Notes under the pieces: generated by a model | The model's database searches: none | Told to the model about the DNA's origin: nothing | What the model saw: the letters and a program-made list of their open reading frames with translations, nothing else | Part shown: one piece after another, positions 10,102 to 48,753 of the stretch | How positions within the stretch are numbered: the stretch's first letter is position 1 | Layout: every line of letters starts with the position of its first letter | Assembly (NCBI RefSeq): GCF_004766045.1 | Contig: NZ_SPQQ01000003.1 | Location: 620,001-684,000 of the forward strand | DNA from: Desulfosporosinus fructosivorans | Lineage (GTDB): Bacteria > Bacillota > Desulfitobacteriia > Desulfitobacteriales > Desulfitobacteriaceae | Reading direction: 5' to 3' | Length of the DNA stretch: 64,000 nt | Made by a program: the position numbers and the translations under genes

Positions 10102-11178
10102 ATGATAAATAGGATAAGGTACGGTATATTAGTCGTAGGTTTTATATTTCTAAGTGCGTTGGTGTTCGCTGGATGTGGGCAAACTCCAGCCCCTACGCCT
10201 ACACCACCTACACCAGTTGCTACGACGACTTATGCCGGAGATGCCTCTTGTAAAGCATGTCACGAGGGTACGCACACATCCTACCAGACGAGTAAACACT
10301 CAACAGCCTTTAAACCCCTGTCGGCATATCCAATGACCGCTCCCTTAGGAACAATTTCCGTATATGACGCATTGAATACAGAAAATAAAACACCTGCTCA
10401 ACTTGATCTTTCTAAAGAAGGCACTGTGTTAGGCGTGATGATGGATGACTATGTGGTCGCTAAAGTCCCTGGATTTAAGGAGAAAATCTACCGCGTTGCA
10501 GCGGTACACAAAGCGGGAGACAAATGGGAGGTGCAGCCTGCCAAGGAAGTTCTCGATGCTGATAAAAAACCCGTTCTTGGAGAAGATGGAAAGCCCAAGT
10601 GGTCGGCAGAGAGCTACACCTGTGGCAAATGTCATAGCCCCGGAGTCGAAGCGAATTCCCCAAGTCTGGGGGTGTCCTGTGAATCTTGCCACGGCGCAGG
10701 CTCGGCTCACGTAACTGCTGCGAATGATAAGAAAAAGGGCAGTATTAACGTCCCTGATTCGGAAGATTGCTTAACCTGTCATAAGTCTGATCCGGCAAAG
10801 GATGCAAAAACAGGAGTTATTACTGTAAACACGCATTATGGAACACGAAACTTCTCAGCCAGTGCACATTCTCAAAGTGGACAACTTAAAGGGTGCATGA
10901 CTTGTCATACTGTGCATAAGGCAAACGCTGCTGGTTCGTTGCTCCAAAAGGATAAGGCTGCGGATATTTGTATTTCTTGTCACGCGGAGAAGAAATATGA
11001 CCCGGCCAAGATAATGTGGAAAAACCCAACGGATGAAAGAGGTCATTTTACCGCTGACCATAGTTTTGGTATTAAGTATGAAGACCTAGGGGATGATCTT
11101 GCAACAAAACCGGTTGAAGTCACTAATCCTGCAACTATTGAGCTACTTAAGAAAGCAGTACCAGATCTGGCTAAGTAG
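10102..11178 (+). CDS. Six-heme cytochrome c lipoprotein
   Basis: Exported lipoprotein of 358 residues. The signal peptide ends in the lipobox V-F-A-G-C with Cys25 as the lipidated residue, followed by a proline/threonine-rich linker. Six C-x-x-C-H heme sites are visible, at about residues 50-54, 174-178, 193-197, 223-227, 265-269 and 290-294. The spacing resembles multiheme electron-transfer cytochromes (NrfA/octaheme-like C554 superfamily), but no catalytic C-x-x-C-K site is present. It would carry electrons on the outer face of the membrane, probably between menaquinol and an acceptor; partner unknown. Strong AGGAGG. Monocistronic, followed by a hairpin. Confidence 0.92.
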   Translation: MINRIRYGILVVGFIFLSALVFAGCGQTPAPTPTPPTPVATTTYAGDASCKACHEGTHTSYQTSKHSTAFKPLSAYPMTAPLGTISVYDALNTENKTPAQLDLSKEGTVLGVMMDDYVVAKVPGFKEKIYRVAAVHKAGDKWEVQPAKEVLDADKKPVLGEDGKPKWSAESYTCGKCHSPGVEANSPSLGVSCESCHGAGSAHVTAANDKKKGSINVPDSEDCLTCHKSDPAKDAKTGVITVNTHYGTRNFSASAHSQSGQLKGCMTCHTVHKANAAGSLLQKDKAADICISCHAEKKYDPAKIMWKNPTDERGHFTADHSFGIKYEDLGDDLATKPVEVTNPATIELLKKAVPDLAK

Positions 11179-12143: not shown

Positions 12144-12755
12144 ATGACAAAAAAGATGACGGTCTACTCAGATTTCTTATGACCCTTTTGTATAATTGGG
12201 AAAGTCCCACTTGACCAGTTGGTTAAGGACAAAAATATTAAGGTAGAATGGAAAGCCTTTGAACTTAGGCCCGAAGGGGTTGAACTCCCAGAAAAGCCTC
12301 CGGAAAATCTTGCCCGGGCGAAGGCTGGTATTGAGGCGTTAGGCCGAAAGTACGGTCTTCTCATGACCTTTAATAATAAGAGTAAACACTCCAGATTAGC
12401 TTTAGAAGGTGCTAAATTTGCGGAAAGACATGGGTTGGTCAACGAATATCACGATGCAGTTTTTGCCGCGCAATTTCAAAAAGAAGAAAACATTAATGAC
12501 TTGAACGTTTTGTGCGAATTAGCTAAGCAGATCGGTTTAGATCAGCAGAAATTTAGGAATGCACTCGTGACTAGGACCTATGAACAAGCTGTTTTGCAGG
12601 ATGTTGAAGAAGCCCATAGTTTAGGTATTCATACTGTTCCCTGTTATATTGTAGATGGTCGCGCGCTATATGGCGCGCAGAACTATCGAACTCTTGAGAG
12701 ACTACTTCAGGGAGATGGAACTGGGTTCCCCTTGGATACTAACCTATTAAAGTGA
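12144..12755 (+). CDS. FrnE-like DsbA oxidoreductase, candidate selenoprotein (UPFC)
   Basis: Thioredoxin-fold oxidoreductase of the DsbA/FrnE family, about 203 residues if the in-frame TGA at 12180-12182 is decoded. From ATG 12144 or 12156 the frame reads Y-S-D-F-L-[TGA]-P-F-C-I-I-G-K. Family members have D-F-x-C-P-F-C-x-x-G-K there, so TGA replaces the first catalytic cysteine and would give U13-P-F-C16. The remaining ~190 codons are intact: E-W-K-A-F-E-L-R-P-E-G, the cis-proline segment H-T-V-P-C-Y-I-V-D-G and G-A-Q-N-Y. A 7-bp hairpin (12210-12216 with 12221-12227, loop AGTT) lies at SECIS-like distance. The Shine-Dalgarno is weak; coupling to the upstream gene is likely. The alternative is a nonsense mutation. 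Confidence 0.75.
12204..12230 (+). promoter_or_regulatory. Candidate bacterial SECIS hairpin
   Basis: RNA stem CUUGACC/GGUUAAG (7 bp with one G-U) capped by AGUU, extended by GUC/GAC across a CCA bulge. The apical loop starts about 35 nt after the in-frame UGA and has G at its second position, within the loose bacterial SECIS rules as I know them. A competing smaller hairpin, UGGGA-AAG-UCCCA (12197-12209), lies 14 nt after the UGA. Which one forms cannot be decided without folding calculations. Confidence 0.5.
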
Positions 12756-47603: not shown

Positions 47604-47626
47604 GACATTAGATAAAAGAAAATAGT

Positions 47627-47695
47627 GTTCATATAGTAGCAGAGATATGGTCTGCGAGTTTCTACCGGACTGCCGTAAATGGTCCGACTATGAGC
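47627..47695 (+). promoter_or_regulatory. Guanine-class purine riboswitch aptamer
   Basis: All purine aptamer parts are present: P1 GTTCATA/TATGAGC, P2 GCAGA/TCTGC enclosing GATATGG, J2/3 GAGTTTCTACC, P3 GGAC/GTCC enclosing TGCCGTAAAT, and J3/1 GACTATG. The ligand-reading base is C (47688), equivalent to C74, which specifies guanine or hypoxanthine rather than adenine. It is followed at once by a second RNA element and then a terminator. Confidence 0.93.
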
Positions 47696-47812
47696 GAAAG
47701 TGTACCTAGGGTAACAGCCCAAGTGGTACAGATCCAAAGACTTATTGAGAGTCTTTACTTTGTTTTTGGATTACACCGAAGGGATATAGGCAACTTGCTT
47801 TGATAGAAGTTT
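47696..47812 (+). promoter_or_regulatory. ykkC-family-like RNA next to the guanine aptamer
   Basis: GAAAGTGTACCTAGGG (47696-47711) is the typical opening of ykkC-family RNAs of the nucleotide-binding subtypes (PRPP and relatives), and TTACACCGAAGGGATATAGG (47771-47790) resembles the second conserved block (ACACc-AAGGGA-AAA-GCC). Between them are GTACC/GGTAC (47702-47706 with 47725-47729), GGG/CCC and a variable hairpin AAAGACT/AGTCTTT (47736-47756). The usual CCGAGAG stretch is not evident, so the subtype and ligand are not assigned. Guanine-PRPP tandems are known upstream of purine genes; family recall, not a search. Confidence 0.6.
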
Positions 47813-47955: not shown

Positions 47956-48753
47956 GTGTTTACATTAAGTAATTTAGTTCAACCAGAAACATTAGAGACT
48001 GCTTATCAGATTCTCTCGGATAAAAGAAATAACACAATTCTTGGTGGCTGTGCCTTCCTGAAAATGAGCTCCAAGAGAATCGGTACTGCTATTGACCTTT
48101 CCAATCTTAGCCTGAGCTATATTAAGGAAACTGACGGCTTTATTGAAATCGGCGGGATGACTTCTTTAAGAGAGCTTGAAACTCATACGCTGTTAAAAGA
48201 GTCTTTTAATGGAGTGTTGCCTAAGGCAGTTTGTAGCATTATCGGTGTGCAATTTAGAAACTGCGTTACCGTAGGTGCTTCAGTATTTTCTAAATACGGA
48301 TTTTCAGATTTGATTACAGCGTTACTAGTTTTAGACACTGAAGTCGAGTTATATAAAGATGGCAGAATGCCTCTAGTTGACTTCTTAAAGATGCCTAAGC
48401 AAAAAGATATCTTAGTGAGATTGTGGATAAAGCTTGTCAACCGTAAAGCAACTTATTTGAATTTGAGAAAATCAGCCAGCGACTATTCGGTCTTAAATGT
48501 TGCCGTATCCAAACTGAATAATCACTGGACTATCGTCGTAGGGGCTAGGCCTAGAAGAGCCGCTATCGCCTCTAAGGCTTCAGCAACCTTATCGAAGGGA
48601 ACACAAAGTGCCGCAGAGGTTGAGGCTGTAGCCAAAGAGGCAGCAGATGAGTTATCCTTTGGAACCAATATGAGAGGGTCGGCTGAATATCGGAAGGCAC
48701 TCTGTAAGGTGCTTGTCAAGAGGGCAATAATGGAGGTGAAGGCATGCAAATAA
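47956..48753 (+). CDS. Molybdenum hydroxylase FAD-binding subunit (XdhB/CoxM type)
   Basis: Protein of 265 residues with the vanillyl-alcohol-oxidase-type FAD fold of xanthine dehydrogenase medium subunits. I-L-G-G-C-A-F-L-K near residue 30 and the T-V-G-A-S-V-F-S flavin segment near 107 (usually T-I-G-G-N) are visible. It would pass electrons from the Fe-S subunit to an acceptor. GTG 47956 follows AAGGAGGAG. First gene of a three-gene operon controlled by RNA elements upstream; overlaps the next gene by 10 bp. Shorter than average (about 285) but intact. Confidence 0.88.
   Translation: MFTLSNLVQPETLETAYQILSDKRNNTILGGCAFLKMSSKRIGTAIDLSNLSLSYIKETDGFIEIGGMTSLRELETHTLLKESFNGVLPKAVCSIIGVQFRNCVTVGASVFSKYGFSDLITALLVLDTEVELYKDGRMPLVDFLKMPKQKDILVRLWIKLVNRKATYLNLRKSASDYSVLNVAVSKLNNHWTIVVGARPRRAAIASKASATLSKGTQSAAEVEAVAKEAADELSFGTNMRGSAEYRKALCKVLVKRAIMEVKACK

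Follow-up and report, generated by a model that had tools for sequence, protein, structure and literature searches.

The closest described counterparts of the gene considered here are the 'DsbA-like' selenoproteins of COG2761, which we take to be the FrnE group. Nine such proteins, with UXXC motifs and SECIS-like stem-loops, were found in the Sargasso Sea survey (Zhang et al. 2005; PMC1088965), others were reported from Desulfotomaculum reducens and further organisms (2006; PMC1794560), and a later count gave 45 in 41 organisms (2016; PMC5029168). Two more occur in Asgard archaea (PMC11227280). A 2026 review lists DsbA-like 'form 1' as a family that is predicted and not experimentally verified (PMC13188914). 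Within the accessible text of these sources no Desulfosporosinus member is named among the published proteins, and our literature searches found nothing relevant naming FrnE and selenoprotein together. The best comparison on the Cys side is FrnE of D. radiodurans (DR_0659; PDB 5cnw, 5cp1 and 5co3), in which a C-terminal CXXXXC motif has been proposed to regenerate the active site; many but not all accepted FrnE proteins have this motif, and it is not required (PMC8945050).

The locus described here, frnE, lies in a window of Desulfosporosinus fructosivorans DNA (the whole stretch analysed, 64,000 nucleotides). With the known DsbA-like selenoproteins (COG2761/PF01323), frnE shares the domain family, a UxxC motif with selenocysteine (Sec) first and a downstream SECIS-like stem-loop, but it differs from them in belonging to a Sec-only orthologous group, made up of the genus and some Bacilli, and in having a putative tandem-hairpin SECIS. 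Because the 2005 survey already listed DsbA-like COG2761 proteins with UxxC, we regard frnE as an added, well-supported member of a known selenoprotein family. An earlier note on this DNA had likewise called the DsbA-like class known, and this stands; it singled out the U-P-F-C form in an FrnE-type protein for checking, and this form is not new either, given the COG2761 UXXC proteins in that survey (PMC1088965). Less expected are the Sec-only group for which no Cys form was found, the exchanges between Cys and Sec, six to nine of them on the sampled family tree, and a putative tandem-hairpin SECIS common to frnE and selD.

The frnE reading frame

The frame reads MTKKMTVYSDFL-[TGA]-PFCIIGK... 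and contains a single internal TGA, followed by 190 open codons up to the stop (Table 1). The earlier note had described just this arrangement, a lone in-frame TGA at the first Cys of a CPFC motif with about 190 intact codons beyond it and conserved FrnE segments to either side, and each element was found again on recounting the frame and comparing relatives, in which purifying selection is strong both before and after the TGA. It had also foreseen that gene calling would start after the TGA and lose the active site, and ordinary ORF calling indeed returns a 178-residue piece from TTG 12219 that lacks it. With the TGA entered as Cys, the Pfam DSBA domain (PF01323) matches residues 6–189 (E=4.6e-32). 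From the evidence reported below, we put the probability that this is a functional selenoprotein gene, with UGA codon 13 read as selenocysteine, at roughly 0.94.

Table 1. Coordinates of frnE, its predicted functional elements and the adjoining upstream frame (window positions)
Feature	Position	Strand	Remarks
frnE (predicted FrnE/DsbA-type selenoprotein gene)	12144..12755	+	203 residues; ATG 12144, stop TGA 12753-12755
UGA, predicted Sec codon (residue 13; stands for the first Cys in the redox motif C-P-F-C)	12180..12182	+	Every Sec-clade relative has TGA here; Cys codon in 42/42 Cys-form rows
Second catalytic Cys of the predicted U-x-x-C pair, residue 16 (TGT)	12189..12191	+	Invariant in the alignment of relatives
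Putative SECIS hairpin 1, GGGA-AAG-UCCC	12198..12208	+	All 31 sequences keep its three G-C pairs, though third codon positions could change freely
Putative SECIS hairpin 2, CUUGACC-AGUU-GGYYAAG	12210..12227	+	Invariant synonymous sites; one compensatory pair
cis-Pro P166 followed by extra Cys C167	12639..12644	+	P-C in most of the Sec clade
Upstream ORF, 218 aa	11481..12137	+	Ends 6 bases 5' of the frnE start

The upstream ORF had no Pfam match. In several congeners its C-terminus can be recognised ahead of frnE, and the two genes are possibly co-transcribed. A multihaem c-type cytochrome-like protein is encoded two genes upstream of frnE (window 10102-11178, +). Elsewhere in the window, a purine riboswitch (RF00167, 84.3 bits) was located at 47609-47710 (+), upstream of an ORF at 47956. 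No other TGA-interrupted gene with a redox-type motif was found when the window was scanned.

Conservation of the TGA codon and the Sec machinery

The earlier note had proposed that homologs be compared at the TGA codon, that the genome be searched for sel genes and that a bacterial SECIS be sought after the TGA, and it held that scattered stops and relaxed selection in relatives would speak against Sec. The homologs proved to be of two kinds, with TGA or with TGT or TGC in this column, and the frames of the TGA forms are intact. In the host genome (6.12 Mb) and its congeners the pattern is uniform. The nearest named protein relatives, at 67–80% identity, are nearly all from Desulfosporosinus, and an orthologue is present in 27 of 30 genomes of the genus (own genome included), always with TGA at the same codon. 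The same codon is TGA in Aneurinibacillus, Paenisporosarcina, Terrihalobacillus, Evansella, Sediminibacillus and Virgibacillus (55–61% identity), in another Bacillota genome and in further genomes of the Bacilli order, giving at least eight Bacilli overall, and in three metagenome-assembled genomes of Chloroflexota (32–37% identity). The fixed TGA codon spans 32–80% protein identity across the Sec-clade relatives. As the identical codon is TGA in the genus, Bacilli and Chloroflexota, and TGT or TGC in Cys relatives, a chance TGA is excluded. A sequencing error for TGC or TGT is contradicted by dozens of independent genomes.

The 92-sequence tree places the Desulfosporosinus and Bacilli orthologues in one group (support 100/99) of 36 Sec forms and no Cys forms, although picking the sequences by profile score may have passed over a rare Cys orthologue. 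No earlier description of such a Sec-only frnE group across the genus and some Bacilli was found in the literature searched. Across the sampled family, parsimony gave nine exchanges between Sec and Cys, at least six of which are forced by well-supported branches. Two Bacilli genomes carry a Cys paralogue directly upstream of the Sec-form frnE (L018:2371 and L018:3037; L101). Further Sec-form FrnE genes were seen in other clades of the phylum (L118, L124, L126; L083, L088, L092, L093, L096, L098, L099), scattered among Cys forms and with single SECIS-like hairpins that are differently placed.

The search for Sec machinery showed that selA, selB, selC and selD are all present in the genome. The selA gene (548 bits) adjoins a TGA-containing selD on one contig (C11), and selB and tRNA-Sec (67.3 bits) lie on another (C36). 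Among distant genomes with a TGA-containing FrnE, all ten had a tRNA-Sec match above the Rfam cut-off, although the match in one of them (G081, 48.8 bits) is only tentative, as it scores no better than weaker secondary matches elsewhere in the family search. In the order of Terrihalobacillus (Bacillales-type genomes), all 17 genomes whose listed FrnE matches include one with an internal TGA also have selA (TGA position confirmed directly in six of the 17), compared with 139 of 299 genomes overall (hypergeometric P=1.3e-6). In three congeners (G028, G015 and G017) a further strong tRNA-Sec and a further selB lie at a separate site, which suggests that their Sec system is duplicated.

RNA signals in frnE and selD

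The search for a SECIS that the earlier note had proposed revealed an RNA signal resembling one just downstream of the TGA. In 29 non-redundant Sec-clade genes, codons +6 (GGG), +10 (CTT) and +12 (CAG) are invariant, and at codons +8, +11, +13 and +15 the same residue is always encoded by the same codon. Among pairs of genes with the same residue, codon identity in the Sec clade averages 0.91 at +6 to +15 and 0.47 beyond +16; over the same +6 to +15 block it is only 0.50 and 0.37 in two Cys clades. The frozen third positions coincide with the stems of two adjacent hairpins (Table 1), whereas codon +9, which lies between the hairpins, and sites outside them vary freely. Mean third-position entropy is 0.11 bits at paired and 1.13 bits at unpaired sites, and two alternative folds separate the two classes less well. 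Covariation is weak because the stems hardly vary; a single compensatory change, G-C to A-U, was seen in hairpin 2 of two Bacilli.

According to the 2026 review, the small apical loop of a bacterial SECIS carries a G at its first or second position, often followed by G or U, and lies 16–37 nt after the UGA (PMC13188914). Hairpin 2 agrees with this rule: its loop, AGUU, has G second and then U, and starts 34 nt past the UGA. The stability of the window's own 51-nt RNA is unremarkable (z=-1.4), and no Rfam SECIS family matched the frnE region. Folding the window RNA as a single sequence told little, and the minimum-energy structure obtained, which differs from the conserved two-hairpin fold, was discarded in the light of the alignment. 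A long-range alternative in which UGACC pairs with GGYCA explained fewer of the constrained sites than the two hairpins did. In other Sec-form FrnE genes one strong hairpin lies closer to the UGA (a Chloroflexota genome has GAGUCC-GGUCU-GGACUC and Bacilli have AGCGGA-GGU-UCCGCU, for example), and hairpins are stronger in 14 Sec forms from outside the main clade than in 42 Cys forms (P=6e-7).

A similar arrangement is present in the Sec-form selD genes of the genus (loci L064-L066 and L130-L150). In 20 distinct sequences, two adjacent hairpins were located at nucleotides 15–29 and 31–45, numbered from the first base of the UGA, and the loop of the second is GUU or GUA. Pairing holds in 97.9% of the alignment cells in these stems, both sides change in three pairs, and the covariation score was not reached in any of 500 shuffles. 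Five Cys-selD paralogues of the genus lack both hairpins, with means of -1.6 and -0.9 kcal/mol against -7.9 and -7.4 kcal/mol in the Sec forms. Three copies of selD with a TGA occur in the window's genome. As one of the three (L066) has hairpin 1 only, the second hairpin is not universal. The same arrangement occurs in the unrelated frnE and selD genes and is absent from the Cys-selD paralogues of the genus. We tentatively suggest, at rather less than even odds, that Desulfosporosinus and the Bacilli sharing its frnE may use, in place of a single stem-loop, a composite two-hairpin SECIS with an (A)GUU-type second loop, a distinct bacterial class read by the SelB of this lineage. No earlier description of a two-hairpin SECIS was found in the literature searched. 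The 2026 review notes that many bacterial SECIS elements are unlike each other and unlike those of E. coli (PMC13188914).

These results bear on how the UGA is read. Suppose that a reassigned tRNA or a suppressor tRNA decoded it as Cys, Trp or some other residue: Cys would fit what homologs have there and would likewise give a complete active site, but the same gene ends on an ordinary TGA stop, the genome holds a full Sec system, and the SECIS-type constraint on the RNA is confined to TGA forms; we consider such decoding highly improbable. Translation from TTG 12219, the sole start that conventional ORF calling offers, is less probable still. Conservation extends to the residues that precede the TGA (K-I/M-T-V-F/Y-S-D-F-L), and, judged by the AlphaFold2 model, a protein begun at the TTG would be missing the catalytic motif as well as the first strand of the fold. 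The ribosome-binding site of the window gene is weak; those of Bacilli orthologues are clear and precede the upstream ATG (for example AGGAGG), which again argues against the TTG. That the gene has decayed, the TGA being a nonsense mutation and the remainder a pseudogene, has next to no probability, for although a lone early TGA looks in isolation like one nonsense mutation, this idea is refuted by the conservation of the TGA and the intact frame across genera, with the same TGA kept in more than 35 species-level genomes, all 190 following codons open, flanking residues under purifying selection, and synonymous sites varying outside the hairpin block.

The predicted selenoprotein and its implications

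Profile comparison ranks D. radiodurans FrnE (E=6.6e-42) and S. coelicolor SCO1869 as the nearest proteins of known structure. The AlphaFold2 model is confident (pLDDT 91.9, pTM 0.88), and its top PDB matches are the D. radiodurans FrnE structures (5cp1, E=8.5e-14, TM 0.81). Because both profile and structure matches point to FrnE, the product is assigned to the FrnE type within the DsbA fold. Of the features of COG2761 FrnE, the DSBA domain is present, with both the thioredoxin fold and the helical insertion, and the CP(W/F)C active site aligns with U-P-F-C, Sec replacing the first Cys. The window protein differs from D. radiodurans FrnE in this replacement, in being shorter and in lacking the C-terminal CXXXXC; its only in-domain Cys positions are 13 (Sec), 16, 124 and 167. 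The sole NCBIfam match is to the Rcas_1661 family of DsbG-like seleno-lipoproteins (NF041057), which likewise are thioredoxin-like and have UxxC, but at 53 bits against a cut-off of 190, and over residues 79-189 only, it marks a fold relative and not a member. The position after the cis-proline sits near the active site in thioredoxin folds. P-C is found there in 29 of 36 Sec-clade rows and in none of the 37 Cys-form rows with a readable motif, and one may speculate that C167 resolves a Sec intermediate.

In the mechanism we propose, the ribosome would initiate at the ATG and meet the UGA at codon 13, where SelB with Sec-tRNA(Sec), recruited by an RNA element within the ~45 nt of mRNA that follow, would insert selenocysteine. 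Judged from sequence, insertion at this codon by SelB and tRNA-Sec is very likely. The product would be an oxidoreductase of FrnE/DsbA fold with a Sec-Pro-Phe-Cys active site and Sec13-Cys16 as the redox pair. Most likely, the Sec selenolate would attack substrate disulfides, or a selenenylsulfide would form with Cys16. We infer a cytoplasmic thiol-disulfide oxidoreductase or reductase, and lean modestly towards a reductase or isomerase role.

Ordinary gene calling would mis-annotate frnE across a genus of sulfate reducers and some Bacilli. The Sec-only group, together with the tandem Cys and Sec paralogues of two Bacilli, would provide a good natural test of what selenium brings to an FrnE-type enzyme. 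The rigid two-hairpin element, present in two gene families for which Cys genes serve as controls, would make the recognition of a SECIS unlike that of E. coli by a Gram-positive SelB directly testable.
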